IMG/VR virus record: IMGVR_UViG_3300028829_003417
Span: 1 to 27,867 of that record
From: a virus
Length of the DNA stretch: 27,867 nt
Reading direction: 5' to 3' (one strand)
Shown here: one piece after another, positions 4,892-23,905 of the stretch
Layout of the letters: each line of letters begins with the position of its first letter
How positions within the stretch are numbered: the first letter of the stretch is position 1
Made by a program: the position numbers and the translations under genes
Notes under the pieces: generated by a model
What the model saw: the letters and a program-made list of their open reading frames with translations, nothing else
Databases searched by the model: none
What the model was told of the DNA's origin: nothing

Positions 4892-6140
4892 AAATAAACT
4901 AGGTCTTAGAGGGTGGATGGCAGAAAAACTTAATCCAGCACAACCCTCAATAGCTGCTCTTGAACCGTATGCATCCCCCGAAACTATTGTTGACTATGAG
5001 CAAGCTTATCGAGAGATTGAGGTTGTTCATCGTTCAGTTGAGATGGTTATTAATGGGTGTGTTGAAATCCCTCTTATTGTAGAGGGTAATTCTCCTGCGA
5101 AAAAAGTAAATAGAATGTTAAACCATAAACCAAATCCTTTTGAGGATAGGGTTCGTATGTTTAGGCGCGCTTTACTTGATTACATGCTTGATGGTAACGC
5201 ATTTTTTTATTATGATGGGCAAGATTTATTTTTATTACCAGCTAATGATGTCGAAGTAGTTCCTGATGCTCAAACATTTGTATCTCACTATAATTATTTA
5301 GTTCATAATCAGCAAGCAAATGATTTTTACGGTTTCGGGGCAGGAAAACAAACTCGTAAGTCAGAAGCTATTCGCTTTGAACCTCATGAGATTATACATA
5401 TTTATTCTGAGAATGAGAATTCCATTTTTCGAGGCGTATCAAAGTTAAAATCTATTTTAGGATTAATGGAAGTCTACTACTACATGATTAAATTTCAGCG
5501 CCAATTCTTCAAAAACAATGCGCTTCCTGGATTTGTTTTAACTACTGATAATATTTTATCTCAAAGAGTTAAGCAAAGGCTCTTAGAGGCATGGCGTTCT
5601 ACCTATACTACTATCTTTGATGGGGCAAGAAATCCGGCTATCCTAGATGGAGGATTAAAAATTGATAAGTTCTCTACAGTAAACTTTGATCAATTAGATT
5701 TTGAAAACTCTATTGAACGTATTCAGCAAGACATGGCAAAAGCTATAGGAGTTCCTTATGTTCTCCTTAAATCAGGTAATAATGCTAATATTGACGCCAA
5801 TCAGAAACTATTTTACCTACATACTATCTTACCTATATTAAATCAATTCTGTTCAGCTTTTGAGCACTTCTTTACTGGTGGTGTTACTATACGACCCGAT
5901 AGACTATCCGTTCCAGCTTTACAACCAGATAACAGAACACAGGCAGTTTATTACTCTACTCTGGTAAACACTGGAATTATAACCCCAAATGAAGCTCGTG
6001 AAGGATTAAGATTTCCAAAATTGGAAGGAAATGATAGTATAAGAGTACCACAAAACATCACAGGTAGCGCAACTGATGCTACTCAAGGTGGAAGACCCCC
6101 TGAAGGGGAATCAGAAAACGAGGAAGTAACTGATGAATAA
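4881..6140 (+). CDS. Portal protein (HK97 family)
   Basis: A 419-residue protein, close in length to HK97 gp3. The start is ATG 4881 with AAAGGG upstream. Recognisable portal segments are the N-terminal wing (EIEVVHRSVEMVING, LDYMLDGNAFFYYD), the clip/stem region (EPHEIIHIYSENEN, IFRGVSKL), the helical core (YYYMIKFQRQFFKNNALPG) and the conserved QDMAKAIGVPYVLL and LFYLHTILPILNQF blocks. The last 30 residues are acidic and polar, probably disordered. The dodecameric portal forms the DNA channel at one capsid vertex and docks the terminase. Its end overlaps the next start by 8 nt. Confidence 0.93.
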   Translation: MADENKLGLRGWMAEKLNPAQPSIAALEPYASPETIVDYEQAYREIEVVHRSVEMVINGCVEIPLIVEGNSPAKKVNRMLNHKPNPFEDRVRMFRRALLDYMLDGNAFFYYDGQDLFLLPANDVEVVPDAQTFVSHYNYLVHNQQANDFYGFGAGKQTRKSEAIRFEPHEIIHIYSENENSIFRGVSKLKSILGLMEVYYYMIKFQRQFFKNNALPGFVLTTDNILSQRVKQRLLEAWRSTYTTIFDGARNPAILDGGLKIDKFSTVNFDQLDFENSIERIQQDMAKAIGVPYVLLKSGNNANIDANQKLFYLHTILPILNQFCSAFEHFFTGGVTIRPDRLSVPALQPDNRTQAVYYSTLVNTGIITPNEAREGLRFPKLEGNDSIRVPQNITGSATDATQGGRPPEGESENEEVTDE

Positions 6141-8865
6141 GACATTTTATCTAAATAGTGCTTTCGAAACAAAGAGCGTAAAAAAAGGAACTAAAGCTCT
6201 CAAGATTGCAGGTTATGCAAATACAACAGCAAAAGATCGTGCTGGAGATATTGTTACTGCTGAAGCCTGGGCAAAAGGTGTTGAGAACTTTAGAAAAAAT
6301 CCTGTTATGTTATTCCAACATAAACATGATTGTCCTATCGGTCGTATTGATAAAATTACAGTCGATAAAAAAGGTATCTTTGTCGAAGGTGCAGTTAGCG
6401 AAGCAGCTGAGAAGACTCATGGTGTACAAACCCTGATCCGAGACGGTGCTTTAAAAAGTTTTAGTGTAGGTTTTCGTGTTAAGGATGGCAAATATAACAG
6501 AGAAGATGATTCAATGATGATTACTGATGTTGAACTTCTAGAAATTTCTGTTGTCTCTGTCCCTTGTAACCAAGATTCACTATTCTCAATTCGTAAATCA
6601 TTCGATTCAGATGATGAATTTAATGAGTTTAAAAAGTCTCTTAAAGAGGCTGACGAAAATGAAATCAAGATGATGCGTAAAATTAAAGCTGGAATTACTG
6701 ACGTGAGCGAAGGTCATTATCATACCGTAGAAATGGATGATGCTGGCAATGGTGTAACCACATACGCATCGCATATGGCTAACCATGCTCACAAAATCAT
6801 TGGAGGTGTTATGCTTGAGGCCGAAGGCCACACACATGATATTACAATGTTAGGTGTTCCAATTCATAATATGGAGGAGGGCGAGGTTGTAAACGAGCGT
6901 CCAATGTCTCCAACCGAGGAGGAAGCAATGAGTAACTCAAAATCTGAGGAAGCTACTGAAGAGAAGACTGAAGAAGTCATCGAAGAAGTAGCCGAAATGG
7001 AGGTTGAAGTGAAAACAGAGACTGAAGAAGTCATTGAAACAAAAGACGATGACGAAGCAGTTGAAGAAAAAACTGAAACTGATGATGTTGAAGTCAAAGC
7101 TGAAGCCGAGGAAGCTATTGAAGACGAAATGGAAAAGGATGATGAAGAGGAAGTGTTTGTAGCACGTGATCCTAATGAGTCTATCCCGTTTGTTAACTTG
7201 CTTTCTACAGACGCAAGCAAACTTCAAAATGGAGATTTAGTAAATTTCCATAATAAAATGTATAAGGTTGCTACTATCGCAACTGAGCAAAGCCCAATCT
7301 TTAAGTTTTTACAGATTGACGCTGACGGAAATGACTGTGATAATGTTCTTAATGTGAACGCAGATGAACTTTCACAAGTCGAGAAAACTCAAACAAGTGA
7401 AGAAGAAGATTCTAACGAAAGTCTGACTGAAGAGCTTCACAACATTTCTACAAAGGAGAAAGACAACATGGCTGATCAAGTCGTAGATACAATTGATCTC
7501 GAAGCTGCTAAAAAAGAAGTAGCAATCGAGACACAAAAAGAAGCACCTCGTGCTCAAGTGTCTGAGCCTCAAGTTGCAGAGCTGGTTAAAGCTACCGGTG
7601 AAGCTATCGTAAAAGAGTCAGACGCACAAGACCAACAAACTCTCGTGAAGGGCGAAGCAGAAATTGCTTACGTACCTCGCGAATCTGAGCAAGTCGCAGA
7701 ACTAAAAGCTCAGATGGAAAAATATAAGGAAGAGGTCGCATCTCTTCAACGCTCAAAGATGCAATTCCAAGAGCAGTCACGCAATGCAGCTCAGTTCTCT
7801 GAAAAAGAAATGGCTAACGCTGTTATTCTTTCAAAGTTGCTGAATCGTCGTGACCCATTTGATACAAAACTAGGTCAAAAAGTTAAAGCAGTCACATCTG
7901 TAGACCAGTTCTTGAGCAACTTCTCACAGAACATCTATACCGAGATGGAACAGCAGCTTGTAGTTGCACCTATGTTCCAGCGTATGGCAGTGGATGCTAA
8001 GACTTTCCGCGTACCAGTAGCTGACGAAGATACTGACGGTGATGTTGCAATGTTTGCTTCTGGCACATTCGCAACTGGTATTGCAGAGGCAACTCGTGTT
8101 CCTGCATCAAACCAGAACACCATCAGCGCAGTTGAGTTTACACCACATAAATTTATGGCCTCAACTCATCTCGCAAAAGACGAAGAAGAAGATACAGTTC
8201 TTCCACTCCTCGACTTCTTGCGCGCTGCAGCAACTCGTCGTTTGGCACGTGCCATCGATAAGTCAATCCTACGTGGTACAGGCGCGTTGACAGGCTTTAC
8301 AGCTTCTCCAACTAACGCTATTACAGCAGGTACAGGTTACGCATCTGTTATCGAAGGTATCACAAACCTCGCATCTGACGCATCACTCTCTGTTGCAACA
8401 GGTGGAGCAAACGATAAGGCTGATCCAACAGATATCGCAGCTGCTCGTACAGTGCTTGGTAAATATGGCTTACAGCTTGGTAACGACCTCGTGTTTATTA
8501 CCTCAATCGAAGGCTATAACAATCTTGTAACAACTTCTGATTTCCAGACTGTTGACAAGTTTGGTCCAAATGCAACTTACCTCACAGGTTCAGTTGGCGC
8601 CGTTTACGGTATTCCAATTGCTATCTCTGAGTTCATGGATAACGTTGGTGGAACAGGTCGTCATCTTGGCGCACTCGTCTACAAGCCGGGCTTCATGATT
8701 GCAGAACGTCGTGGTATTGAGATTGAGAGCGAGTATGAGCCACGCCAGCAGGTCACAGCAATGTACATGAGTACACGTTTTGACTTTAAAGCCCTCACAA
8801 CTAATAGCTCTGCAGCACTTGATTCAACTAAGTATGCATACGCTTGTGTGATTGACGCTGGTTAA
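6133..8865 (+). CDS. Prohead protease - scaffold-like region - major capsid protein fusion
   Basis: One uninterrupted 910-residue ORF. Residues about 20-155 are a U35-type prohead serine protease: catalytic His in LFQHKHD (H63, possibly H65), Ser in LKSFSVGF (S111), and an acidic residue in LLEISVVSVP (E137). Residues about 195-236 are a His-rich stretch with three H-x-H motifs. Residues about 260-445 are very acidic (TEEKTEEVIEEVAEMEVEV), like a scaffold, with a small beta-type patch at about 345-410. Residues 446-910 are an HK97-fold major capsid protein with an N-terminal delta-like helical region. Protease and capsid domains fused in one ORF are known in other phages. Here two good internal ribosome sites (before 6928 and 7468) suggest that shorter in-frame products are also made. 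The start overlaps the portal stop. Confidence 0.9.
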   Translation: MNKTFYLNSAFETKSVKKGTKALKIAGYANTTAKDRAGDIVTAEAWAKGVENFRKNPVMLFQHKHDCPIGRIDKITVDKKGIFVEGAVSEAAEKTHGVQTLIRDGALKSFSVGFRVKDGKYNREDDSMMITDVELLEISVVSVPCNQDSLFSIRKSFDSDDEFNEFKKSLKEADENEIKMMRKIKAGITDVSEGHYHTVEMDDAGNGVTTYASHMANHAHKIIGGVMLEAEGHTHDITMLGVPIHNMEEGEVVNERPMSPTEEEAMSNSKSEEATEEKTEEVIEEVAEMEVEVKTETEEVIETKDDDEAVEEKTETDDVEVKAEAEEAIEDEMEKDDEEEVFVARDPNESIPFVNLLSTDASKLQNGDLVNFHNKMYKVATIATEQSPIFKFLQIDADGNDCDNVLNVNADELSQVEKTQTSEEEDSNESLTEELHNISTKEKDNMADQVVDTIDLEAAKKEVAIETQKEAPRAQVSEPQVAELVKATGEAIVKESDAQDQQTLVKGEAEIAYVPRESEQVAELKAQMEKYKEEVASLQRSKMQFQEQSRNAAQFSEKEMANAVILSKLLNRRDPFDTKLGQKVKAVTSVDQFLSNFSQNIYTEMEQQLVVAPMFQRMAVDAKTFRVPVADEDTDGDVAMFASGTFATGIAEATRVPASNQNTISAVEFTPHKFMASTHLAKDEEEDTVLPLLDFLRAAATRRLARAIDKSILRGTGALTGFTASPTNAITAGTGYASVIEGITNLASDASLSVATGGANDKADPTDIAAARTVLGKYGLQLGNDLVFITSIEGYNNLVTTSDFQTVDKFGPNATYLTGSVGAVYGIPIAISEFMDNVGGTGRHLGALVYKPGFMIAERRGIEIESEYEPRQQVTAMYMSTRFDFKALTTNSSAALDSTKYAYACVIDAG
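6916..6930 (+). promoter_or_regulatory. Internal Shine-Dalgarno and in-frame ATG (possible nested scaffold start)
   Basis: GAGGAGG at 6916-6922 stands 5 nt before ATG 6928, which is in frame with the fused ORF (residue 266). Starting here would skip the protease and make the acidic scaffold-like region, as lambda Nu3 is nested inside gene C. Glu codons (GAGGAGG) produce such sequences by chance, so this site is weaker evidence than the one at 7468. Confidence 0.4.
7452..7470 (+). promoter_or_regulatory. Internal ribosome binding site for the major capsid protein
   Basis: AAAGGAG at 7452-7458 lies 9 nt before ATG 7468, in frame at residue 446 of the fusion. The following residues (MADQVVDTIDLEAAKKEV) look like a native N-terminus. 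From here on, Arg codons become purely CGT/CGC, as expected for a very highly expressed gene. Confidence 0.65.
7468..8865 (+). CDS. Major capsid protein (probable separate product from the internal start)
   Basis: Translation from ATG 7468 would give a 465-residue HK97-fold capsid protein. The first 105 or so residues are Lys/Glu/Gln-rich and helical with a coiled coil (about residues 517-550 of the fusion), matching the delta domain that is cut off during head maturation. The mature part likely begins near the QSRNAAQFSEKEM segment. Capsid-core hallmarks are the N-arm, the E-loop region (MFQRMAVDAKTFRVPV), the spine helix (LDFLRAAATRRLARAIDKSIL) and the A/P-domain strands ending in IEIESEYEPRQQVTAMYM. 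The upstream ribosome site and capsid-like copy-number needs argue for an independent product; if the fusion were the only product, protease and capsid would be made one to one. Confidence 0.7.
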   Translation: MADQVVDTIDLEAAKKEVAIETQKEAPRAQVSEPQVAELVKATGEAIVKESDAQDQQTLVKGEAEIAYVPRESEQVAELKAQMEKYKEEVASLQRSKMQFQEQSRNAAQFSEKEMANAVILSKLLNRRDPFDTKLGQKVKAVTSVDQFLSNFSQNIYTEMEQQLVVAPMFQRMAVDAKTFRVPVADEDTDGDVAMFASGTFATGIAEATRVPASNQNTISAVEFTPHKFMASTHLAKDEEEDTVLPLLDFLRAAATRRLARAIDKSILRGTGALTGFTASPTNAITAGTGYASVIEGITNLASDASLSVATGGANDKADPTDIAAARTVLGKYGLQLGNDLVFITSIEGYNNLVTTSDFQTVDKFGPNATYLTGSVGAVYGIPIAISEFMDNVGGTGRHLGALVYKPGFMIAERRGIEIESEYEPRQQVTAMYMSTRFDFKALTTNSSAALDSTKYAYACVIDAG

Positions 8866-12372: not shown

Positions 12373-13656
12373 ATGGCATCTCTAAACCTACAGAGAAACT
12401 CCGAGGTGTTTTTGTCAACCGTTGACTTGATTAACGGTGCTGCAGTCACTTCAATGACTCCAACTAACACATGGAAACTTGAAGTTCTCGCTGGATTCGC
12501 GGTAACTTCATCATCTGCGACTCAGGATATTACTTCACTGGAATCAGGAACTAGTCCTGATCGTTCGCAACAAAGATTTAATACAGCTATTAACCCTGTA
12601 GACTGGAACTTCCAAGTCTATTTACGTCCTACTGACGTAAACACAGGAGCAGCTGGTAATACAACTACAGCCCTTACTAACGCCACAGGTAACGTAAAAC
12701 CTGTTGCTGATTGGTTTATGTGGCAATCACTAGTTTCAAGCACTAAAGTAGCTGACGGAACTGAAGAAAATTCTGTTTGGGAAACCGGCGGAAAGCTACA
12801 GACTAAAACTACTTCAGCTGGTACAGGTTCACACGCGTCAACCTCTAACTTCTCAACTGCTACTGAAAACCATATGTATTTTAAACTTGATAACGTTATT
12901 TATCAGGTATCTAATGCTACTGTTAATGGTGCAACTGTTGATGCTGGTATCGAAGAAATCGCTACGACAACATGGACAGGCTTTGGTACTACTATGAAAG
13001 AACTTACTGGAACAGTTCGCAATAATGCTGTTTCAGTGTTTGGTGGGATTAAAAATGATGGCTCAAGTGTCACAGCCAACTCAAATGTTCATACACTTGA
13101 CCATACTGCTGTAGCTGAAGCATCCTACCATCCATTTGGACAAATGAACGTTGCAGGAGCTATCGGAACTAATTCATTCATCAAGAATCGTTTGAGTGCT
13201 ATTGAGTTCCATCATAAAGCAACTGCTACTGCGTCAGATGAGAAGTTTACCTTCCCAGTTACATCGCTATCATTTGATTACAATAACAACATTACTTACT
13301 TGACACCTGAAGAACTTTCAGCTCTAAACGAGCCGATTGGTCAGTTTACAGGAACTCGCGCAGTCACAGGTTCAGCTACTATGTATCTCCGTAGCGGAGA
13401 CCTTGAATCAGCTGGGTTCTTACGTAACATTTCAGAAGATTCACGTACTTCTTCTGCTCAGACATCAAACGCTAATTTGATTGTCGGAGGAGCTACTGCT
13501 CCTTATGTTGCTTTCCAACTTGACGCAGTTCAATTTGAATTCCCATCTATCGCTACTGAAGATGTGATTTCTATGACTGTTAACTTCGTTGCTCAAGAAA
13601 CCACCGCCAATAAAGGTGATGGTGGAGAAGTAACTATCTTTGCTAAGAAAGCTTAG
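12373..13656 (+). CDS. Major tail (tube) protein
   Basis: A 427-residue, Thr/Ser/Asn-rich beta protein with a strong AAGGAG site (12359-12364, 8-nt spacing). Its place between the tail terminator and the frameshifted chaperone pair is the standard position of the tail tube subunit. Low Cys content and long beta segments (FDYNNNITYLTPEELSAL, YVAFQLDAVQFEFP, VISMTVNFVAQ) fit a tube protein. At 427 residues it is longer than lambda gpV (246), suggesting an extra surface domain, perhaps the Thr/Gly/Ser-rich middle. Arg codons are mostly CGN, unlike most neighbours, consistent with high expression. It is followed by a structured non-coding leader (13661-13787). Confidence 0.85.
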   Translation: MASLNLQRNSEVFLSTVDLINGAAVTSMTPTNTWKLEVLAGFAVTSSSATQDITSLESGTSPDRSQQRFNTAINPVDWNFQVYLRPTDVNTGAAGNTTTALTNATGNVKPVADWFMWQSLVSSTKVADGTEENSVWETGGKLQTKTTSAGTGSHASTSNFSTATENHMYFKLDNVIYQVSNATVNGATVDAGIEEIATTTWTGFGTTMKELTGTVRNNAVSVFGGIKNDGSSVTANSNVHTLDHTAVAEASYHPFGQMNVAGAIGTNSFIKNRLSAIEFHHKATATASDEKFTFPVTSLSFDYNNNITYLTPEELSALNEPIGQFTGTRAVTGSATMYLRSGDLESAGFLRNISEDSRTSSAQTSNANLIVGGATAPYVAFQLDAVQFEFPSIATEDVISMTVNFVAQETTANKGDGGEVTIFAKKA

Positions 13657-13660
13657 TAAC

Positions 13661-13787
13661 TAATGTTTCTGAGGGGGAACATTAACTTTTTAACCAGAAG
13701 AATGCCCACTACTTGCGATTCAAGGTCCCCCCTCACCTTAGAGAAGCAGATCCGTAGTGGGCATTCGTTTATCCTAGAGGGGAAAAC
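13661..13787 (+). promoter_or_regulatory. Structured RNA leader with two hairpins able to form a kissing loop, upstream of chaperone G
   Basis: Hairpin 1 pairs TAATGTT (13661-13667) with AACATTA (13678-13684); its loop shows GAGGGGG (13671-13677). A perfect 13-bp stem joins 13700-13712 (GAATGCCCACTAC) to 13754-13766. Inside it, AAGGT (13722-13726) pairs with ACCTT (13735-13739), exposing the loop CCCCCCTC (13727-13734). Loop CCCCCTC (13728-13734) is exactly complementary to GAGGGGG in hairpin 1 (7 bp). The same loop also matches GAGGGG at 13777-13782, the Shine-Dalgarno of the next gene (ATG 13788). This suggests a choice between a kissing loop and masking of the ribosome site. The pairing is read directly; the switch is inference. 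Confidence 0.75.
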
Positions 13788-14219
13788 ATGAGTAAAATTT
13801 CAAAACTAATTGCCAAAGAGACAACAGCTTGGGTAGAATTTCCAGACATTGACGGGTTTGAAGTAAATCTTCGCTTTTTATCACGCGAAGATCTAATGAA
13901 AGTTCGTAGTCAAGCTCTTACCTTTAAATTTAATAAACGTACTCGTCAACGAGAAGAAGAAGTTGATAACGAGCGTTTTCTTGAAGGCTATAGTGAAAAA
14001 GCTATTGCAGGATGGAAAGGTCTTAAAGCTAAACATCTTCCGGTTCTTTTACCTGTTGACATTTCTGCAATGGACGCTAACGAAGAAATCGAATATAGTA
14101 GTGAAGATGCAATTGAGCTACTAAAAAATTCAACTATTTTTGATCAATTTGTTACCGACTGTATGAATGACTTTGAGCAATTCTCTAAGAAAAAAGCCGA
14201 GGACAACTCAAAAAACTAA
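13788..14219 (+). CDS. Tail assembly chaperone, short form (lambda G-like)
   Basis: A 143-residue protein, matching lambda gpG (140). It follows the major tail protein and precedes the tape measure, and it ends on a frameshift site, all hallmarks of the G/GT chaperones that coat the tape measure during tail assembly and recruit tube subunits. The N-terminal part (WVEFPDIDGFEVNLRFLSREDLMKV) resembles gpG-type proteins; the end is Lys/Glu/Asn-rich (KKKAEDNSKN). The Shine-Dalgarno GAGGGG at 13777-13782 has 5-nt spacing and can pair with the upstream RNA loop, so translation may be controlled by that structure. Confidence 0.85.
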   Translation: MSKISKLIAKETTAWVEFPDIDGFEVNLRFLSREDLMKVRSQALTFKFNKRTRQREEEVDNERFLEGYSEKAIAGWKGLKAKHLPVLLPVDISAMDANEEIEYSSEDAIELLKNSTIFDQFVTDCMNDFEQFSKKKAEDNSKN

Positions 14220-22714: not shown

Positions 22715-23905
22715 TTGACCAAAAATCAAAAAATTAAAGGCTGTATACTTCCTTGGATGCATCTATTTGGCGCTATAAGTGGAGAGTATAGAGCATGCTG
22801 TCATGTGGAATTTTTAGATGACGAATCAACCGTATTAGGCAATCATAAGCAAACTTTAGATGAAGTCTGGAACGGAGAATCTTATCGCAACATCAGACAG
22901 CGATTTTTAAAAGGAGATATCCCGGACGGCTGTAAGAAAGTATGTTATGATAGAGAAGTTCATGGAGATAGTATTAGCAATAGGCAACAAGTTAATAAGA
23001 GATTTAAGAAAAAAGCTTACTTACAAGATTTAACCAACGACGACGGTAGCCTGCCTAATAAACCCTCTTATTTAGATTTACGTTTTGGCAATCTGTGTAA
23101 TTTTAAATGCAGAACCTGCGGTCCTAATGCTTCGACAAGTTGGTACACAGACTGGCCGGATAACAAACTAAGTTCTGTAGTAGACTATTATTCTGATAAC
23201 GAAGCTGTTTGGTCTAGCTTCCCAGAATATTTATCTGAGTTAGAAGATGTTTATTTTGCTGGAGGAGAACCTTTTGTACAAGAAGGTCATTATAAATTAC
23301 TGTTTAAATTGATAGAACTAGATTATGCTAAAAATATTAATCTTCAATATAATACTAACCTAAGTTATACCAAGTTTAAGAAGTATGATCTTGAAGATAT
23401 ATGGAGTAATTTTAAGTCTGTAGATCTTTGGCCTAGTATAGATGGTTTCGGTACTAGGGCAGAATATACTCGAAAGGGATTATCTTGGAAAACTTTTGAA
23501 GCAAACGCGCTTTATTTTAAGAAACACATTTCAACATTTAGTTGTGTAATTAGTTTGTATAGTATTACTTCAATGCCTGATTTAATTCTTTGGTGTAAGA
23601 AGAACGGATTCAATTATTATGGTAATATACTTAATGGCCCAGAAAGGGTTAATCTCAAGTGTTTACCTAAAGACTGTAAAAAACAAATAGTTGAACTTTA
23701 TAAACGTTTTGTCATAAAAAACAAAAATATACTATCTCCTCATGATTTATCTCAGATAAAGAGTTGGCTGTCTTATATGAATGGGGGAGATCTTTCTGCA
23801 CTACTCCCAGAATTCAAACGTGAACAAACACGTTTAGACTTATTACGTAATGAGTCCTTTGAATCGATCTATCCAGAATATGCTTCATGGTACAAAAATA
23901 TTTAA
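22715..23905 (+). CDS. Radical SAM enzyme with twitch/SPASM-like auxiliary cysteines
   Basis: A 396-residue protein from TTG 22715, 8 nt after the L-like stop; the ribosome site is weak (GAGAG). The radical SAM [4Fe-4S] motif Cx3Cx2C is complete at C128, C132, C135 (CNFKCRTC), followed by GGEP at 183-186 for SAM binding and SIDG at 241-244. N-terminal cysteines C10, C28, C29, C73 and C77 (CILPWMH, ACCHVE, CKKVCYD) fit an auxiliary Fe-S cluster of the twitch/SPASM type, permuted to the N-terminus as in 'twitch domain-containing radical SAM' proteins. SPASM/twitch enzymes mostly modify peptides or proteins. The substrate here is unknown. The gene overlaps its downstream neighbour and is embedded in the tail-tip operon, so it is expressed during virion assembly. 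Confidence 0.9.
   Translation: MTKNQKIKGCILPWMHLFGAISGEYRACCHVEFLDDESTVLGNHKQTLDEVWNGESYRNIRQRFLKGDIPDGCKKVCYDREVHGDSISNRQQVNKRFKKKAYLQDLTNDDGSLPNKPSYLDLRFGNLCNFKCRTCGPNASTSWYTDWPDNKLSSVVDYYSDNEAVWSSFPEYLSELEDVYFAGGEPFVQEGHYKLLFKLIELDYAKNINLQYNTNLSYTKFKKYDLEDIWSNFKSVDLWPSIDGFGTRAEYTRKGLSWKTFEANALYFKKHISTFSCVISLYSITSMPDLILWCKKNGFNYYGNILNGPERVNLKCLPKDCKKQIVELYKRFVIKNKNILSPHDLSQIKSWLSYMNGGDLSALLPEFKREQTRLDLLRNESFESIYPEYASWYKNI

Follow-up and report, generated by a model that had tools for sequence, protein, structure and literature searches.

Translation of neighbouring genes can be coupled through a hairpin that occludes the ribosome-binding site (RBS) and hides the downstream start until the upstream ribosome opens it. 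In the long-range pseudoknot of rpmI-rplT (L20) and in other ribosomal-protein operators, an upstream segment pairs with the Shine-Dalgarno (SD) region of an internal gene and represses it, and in the SAM-II/SAM-V and preQ1 riboswitches the SD is sequestered by a pseudoknot. In repZ, an upstream hairpin loop pairs with a downstream complement and thereby exposes the RBS of the next gene, the opening being helped by termination in the upstream frame. This repZ-repY pseudoknot switch of ColIb-P9/IncB was reportedly described by Asano & Mizobuchi in 1998, a study listed among the references of PMC10724649.

In the current study, we analysed IMG/VR virus record IMGVR_UViG_3300028829_003417, a stretch of 27,867 bases (the window), and the gap in it between the genes for the major tail (tube) protein (MTP) and the tail assembly chaperone G. 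Tail assembly depends on tube protein being far more abundant than the chaperone, and the G/GT frameshift is the main known means of regulating this ratio. A conserved RNA lying exactly between MTP and G would be a further control point for the ratio. It would, in addition, be a bistable kissing-loop/RBS device taken from nature, of use to RNA engineers, and phage annotation gains an RNA family backed by covariation.

Results

The MTP stop codon occupies 13654-13656 and the ATG of G is at 13788, leaving a gap at 13657-13787 of 131 nt, the length given in the initial annotation. The features of the locus are as follows.

12373..13656, + strand: major tail (tube) protein gene (MTP); PHROG 3575 'major tail protein', E 1.4e-47
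13661..13684 (arms 13661-13669/13676-13684), + strand: P1 hairpin, which presents UGAGGGGG; compensatory changes in 6/6 counted pairs
13670..13680, + strand: P1 strand pairing with L4, UGAGGGGGAAC; in the window 8 bp, a mismatch and 2 bp
13700..13712, + strand: 5' arm of P2, 13 bp; 11/13 pairs changed on both sides, 98% of cells paired
13713..13753, + strand: core, comprising P3 (UUGC/GCAG), internal loops, a UUC/GAG-type helix, P4 (AAGG/CCUU) and a 3' bulge before P2
13727..13735, + strand: L4, apical loop rich in C, CCCCCCTCA; pairs with P1 and has complementarity to the SD
13754..13766, + strand: 3' arm of P2; pairing in the type I alignment
13777..13782, + strand: Shine-Dalgarno GAGGGG of chaperone G; 6 bp of complementarity with L4
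13788..14219, + strand: tail assembly chaperone G; PHROG 313 'Tail assembly chaperone', E 2.9e-13

Downstream of G lie a second chaperone frame and then a tape measure protein of 1651 aa. At the end of G (14209-14219), a slippery A AAA AAC is followed by UAA and the second chaperone frame is open in -1; this is the usual G/GT programmed frameshift. The AAAAAAC was kept in nearly all relatives examined, the few exceptions being truncated or out-of-frame reads. The nearest cultured kin of MTP and the chaperone are T5-like phages (Demerecviridae), whose top-scoring matches share 37% identity with the chaperone and about 29% with the tail protein. Elsewhere in the window, a single ORF of 910 aa (6133-8865) joins Prohead protease (Peptidase_S78) and HK97-type capsid domains through a long acidic linker, and a tail collar protein (446-1429) carries an N-terminal Mtd_N (major tropism determinant) domain with G/T-rich and VPGLSIPAL repeats. 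A 2OG-Fe(II) oxygenase (1714-2298) and a radical SAM/SPASM protein (22715-23905) are both encoded inside the virion-structure region.

The initial annotation had read the gap as a kissing-loop RNA, and the sequence check agreed with its parts: GAGGGGG at 13671-13677, within P1, a perfect 13-bp stem (13700-13712/13754-13766), the loop CCCCCCTC at 13727-13734 and the SD GAGGGG at 13777-13782. The small hairpin that it placed inside the stem does carry this loop, but on a longer and irregular arm made of P3, the UUC/GAG-type helix and P4, and a conserved 3' bulge separates P2 from P3. Likewise, the loop-loop pairing is real but not of the 7 bp proposed, since P1 and L4 pair in the window over 8 bp (UGAGGGGG/CCCCCUCA), followed by an A·C mismatch and 2 further pairs. 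In most type I relatives this helix reaches 11 bp, and among all relatives up to 11-12 bp. P1 begins 5 nt past the MTP stop codon. The unpaired core bases AGCAGAUAU are conserved. The minimum free energy (MFE) of the gap is -49.3 kcal/mol; shuffled sequences average -33.9 (sd 4.0; z = -3.85), and 0/200 of them fold as well as the native one. A hairpin on the SD (UCCU..GGGGA) drawn in the MFE fold was rejected, as it is not conserved among relatives.

This architecture recurs between the same two genes in related loci of IMG/VR contigs, which gave 114 distinct gap sequences. All of them (114/114) share P1 with GAGGGG, a long P2, a P3/P4 core, L4 with apical CCCCUC and a G-rich RBS; the gap varies from 119 to 159 nt and its flanking genes are always MTP and G. 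At least five core variants could be distinguished, namely type I, which includes the core of the window (n = 84), and types II (n = 14), III (n = 9), IV (n = 3) and V (n = 4), in which the core sequence differs and the topology is kept. In the loci L277, L280, L281, L288, L291, L299, L301 and L302-L339, the segment from P2 to L4 has been swapped for unrelated sequences (AACAA..GUUGA types and others), and P1, P2, L4 and the G-rich RBS are retained. A covariance model (CM) built on 39 type I sequences recovered types II-V at E 1e-13 to 8e-3. Across seven long related records it gave one significant copy each in 6/7; the seventh, of 61.5 kb, had no match when the whole record was searched and showed the same element at E 1e-4 on its locus alone.

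The carriers of the element are a large group of uncultured marine phages. A scan of all viral contigs with the type I core pattern returned the MTP-G junction as the sole genuine site, and the other pattern matches (1 viral contig and, in bacterial genomes, 5 contigs), which are without the flanking genes, were dismissed as chance. A sixth bacterial match, L261 (JALQUZ010000068.1), is a short, low-coverage contig of 5.2 kb in an Ilumatobacteraceae MAG with both the tail protein (87%) and the RNA element; it is probably a mis-binned viral contig or a hint at the host. The CM found no match in the whole genomes of the cultured T5-like phages Ceto, 234P7B and KEY, where a minor tail gene sits between MTP and the chaperone. 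The MTP-G gap of Ceto was accordingly rejected as a counterpart of the RNA, because that gap is a gene. A blastn search against cultured phages yielded just spurious matches of 19-29 nt. On the cultured T5-like genomes searched, the element is not part of the Demerecviridae (T5-like) tail module.

The covariation analysis of the type I alignment supported the fold. Over the 36 proposed pairs, 95.4% of cells were paired, compared with 42.6-51.2% when the partners were slid, and 21/36 pairs had changed on both sides (11 in P2, 6 in P1, 3 in P4 and its flank, and 1 in the kissing helix). The covariation score was reached by 0/500 shuffles. In an R-scape-like test with a phylogenetic null over 8,911 column pairs, the true P2 pairs ranked first at E 0.05-1.2, values that are modest because the sequences are related. 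The G·U pairs in P2 greatly outnumber the A·C combinations (60 vs 8), indicating that the selected molecule is the sense (+) strand RNA. A DNA-level function or an antisense RNA is ruled out by this excess.

The kissing helix was paired in 99.7% of cells, with 7 invariant pairs and a variable position 8 (G-C 21, A-U 11 and G-U 6 of 39). On the chaperone-gene tree, 12 positions of P1:L4 were tested and gave 8 double compensatory events, compared with 1-2 for slid partners, and the native P1:L4 duplexes beat 5000/5000 permutations (0/5000 equal). The complementarity of the two loops thus co-varies, and the element is a loop-loop (kissing) pseudoknot RNA. Its presence in 114/114 distinct gaps, the compensatory changes in P1, P2, P4 and the kissing helix and the recovery of diverged types by a model of one type bear out the kissing-loop RNA first proposed, so that both the RNA family and the kissing pair are well supported.

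The RBS of MTP is AAGGAG at every readable start among the relatives. The chaperone SD is non-canonical: of 91 that could be read, 73 are GAGGGG, 13 GAGGG, 4 GAGG and 1 AAGGGG. In seven related records, GAGGGG with ATG shows no enrichment at other genes: there are 21 sites vs 14 for a reversed-pattern control, and on our reading 4 of the 21 are the chaperone itself. In the type III gaps (L313-L325; AAAGGAGAGGGGAAAATG), a canonical AAGGAG stands next to a separate, retained GAGGGG before the chaperone start. At least 6 contiguous SD:L4 pairs can form in 109/114 sequences, whereas the control pairing of the MTP RBS with L4 gives 3-5.

The initial annotation had L4 compete for P1 and the SD and looked to compensatory changes in both pairings. 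For the loop-loop pairing these were found, as described above. For the loop-SD pairing the complementarity is conserved, but a search for SD:L4 covariation gave 2 double events, with permuted pairs equally good in 4693/5000, and in one divergent subgroup (about 10 type I sequences) the SD is reduced to GAGG or GAGGG, leaving 4-6 bp with L4. The scope for compensatory SD changes is limited, since 16S rRNA binds the SD as well. The SD:L4 complementarity is therefore conserved as sequence, and a function of the pairing is putative.

Rfam 15 gave 0 matches at gathering score in the window and none at E ≤ 10 on 13640-13800, riboswitches and self-cleaving ribozymes included. The Rfam matches to the type II sequence L299 were rejected as chance, the best having E 2-9, far below gathering; among them, the freshwater-2 RNA (RF02980) scored 14.3 bits vs the 49.9 required, and its aligned helices cut across P2/P4 and contain broken pairs. 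Among the papers searched, no element of this kind was found either, in line with the earlier statement that none is known to be described at this position in phages.

Discussion

On balance, we lean towards a cis-acting structured RNA of a new family that would gate the translation of chaperone G, with L4 partitioning between P1 and the SD. Translational control as such is likely on the comparative evidence, and it is plausible that the RNA tunes the chaperone level against the tail protein level, as had been suggested at the outset. From sequence comparison we infer all functions of the element, including the switching step and its direction.

In the proposed gate, the SD would be free and G translated when L4 is bound to P1, and G would be repressed when L4 is bound to the SD. 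A ribosome terminating at the MTP stop would open P1, because the 5' arm of P1 starts right past this stop. The opened 3' strand of P1 could then pair with L4 along 8-11 bp and leave the SD exposed, so that chaperone synthesis would depend on, and be kept below, tail-tube translation. The positive sign of this coupling is the least certain step, and the opposite sign would be possible.

The geometry is consistent with such a gate. The G-run of P1 starts 8-24 nt past the MTP stop (median 14), and the footprint of a terminating ribosome places the 5' arm of P1 under the ribosome or at its edge. In types I and II, the match between P1 and L4 runs beyond the loop into the P1 3' arm (8-12 bp), and the full match can therefore form only with P1 open. 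In nearest-neighbour duplex models, which leave out kissing-loop geometry, tertiary structure and three-dimensional constraints, P1:L4 and SD:L4 are near balance in type I when P1 has to be melted (+1.0 ± 3.0 kcal/mol). With P1 already open, the modelled energies favour the P1 strand:L4 pairing in types I, II, IV and V; with P1 closed, the estimate favours SD:L4 for types III-V, which would give the lineages different set points. Taken together, the modelled energies and the geometry would fit a release of the chaperone RBS by tail-tube translation.

The uneven evolution of the two L4 pairings is also what a structural insulator would leave behind. The kissing RNA would then merely separate the heavily translated MTP from G, blocking read-through or re-initiation and keeping G low, and the SD match would be a by-product of a weak G-rich SD. 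P1:L4 is universal and co-evolving and SD:L4 is not, the SD decays to GAGG in a subgroup that retains the kissing helix, and the element occupies the entire gap. However, GAGGGG recurs as the SD time and again, in place of a mixture of weak SDs, and type III retains GAGGGG even beside AAGGAG, which makes the insulator an unlikely explanation, if the strongest of those weighed against the gate.

The core raises a different question. Its unpaired bases are invariant within type I (CUUGCRA, AGCAGAU), more than pairing requires, and the 3' bulge is retained across types, as might be expected if the core and kissing loops were the binding site of a small molecule or a phage protein (tail-tube or chaperone) and binding moved L4 from one partner, P1 or the SD, to the other. 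Such an autoregulatory or ligand-sensing element is nevertheless improbable, since the core is wholly replaced between types I-V, which would be unusual for a fixed small-molecule pocket, and no Rfam riboswitch matches. The conservation of AGCAGAUAU still suggests a bound protein or ligand, beyond what the gate model needs.

An equally improbable reading is that P2 and a U-rich tract act as a leaky terminator or protect the mRNA 3' end behind the abundant MTP, reducing downstream transcription or stabilising the upstream mRNA. Types II-V often have 4-7 U after P2 (7 U in type IV), but in type I, the window included (GUUUAUCCUA), the median longest U-run in the 10 nt after P2 is 3, and the co-evolving kissing helix and the SD match would be left unexplained. 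A GC-rich stem directly followed by a U-tract, as in an intrinsic terminator, is not present in all members; the terminator scan, with its loop limit of 3-8 nt, was blind to P2. Leaky termination may add to the effect in types II-V, not in the window. Chance hairpins in an intergenic gap have a negligible probability, given 114 distinct gaps that conserve the element with compensatory changes and a type I CM that recovers the other types.

Returning to the gate, a broader and more tentative proposal is that these RNAs form a new class of phage RNA switch, built around a single C-rich apical loop for which an upstream kissing hairpin and the SD of the next gene compete. Ribosomes leaving MTP would open the hairpin and thus meter the chaperone, and the core would have been replaced several times while the G/C/G three-way logic was kept.

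Comparison with Known Systems

The coupling of neighbouring genes through RBS-occluding hairpins resembles the proposed gate in that an upstream ribosome would open the structure, but the phage gap of 119-159 nt holds a conserved multi-helix kissing RNA in place of a simple hairpin that overlaps both stop and start. As in SAM-II/SAM-V and preQ1, a pseudoknot would form on the SD; unlike these riboswitches, the phage element is without an Rfam match to E 10, has a much longer kissing-loop architecture and is variable in its core sequence. With rpmI-rplT it would share the pairing of an upstream segment with the SD region. There the repressor is the protein L20, whereas in the phage element a second RNA partner, P1, would compete.

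The repZ-repY switch is alike in that loop pairing would expose the next RBS and upstream termination would aid the opening. Compared with a repZ-like SD-sequestering switch, the phage RNA has the conserved loop-SD complementarity but not the compensatory loop-SD changes, and the shared function is putative. The two also differ in context, since repZ involves a plasmid replication leader peptide and an antisense RNA, whereas the phage element follows a full structural gene and has no evidence of an antisense RNA. Moreover, the phage element carries the sequence complementary to both partners in the apical loop itself, and it is unrelated to repZ in sequence. Based on these comparisons, the best reading is to file the element as a new RNA family, a variant of translational pseudoknot control.
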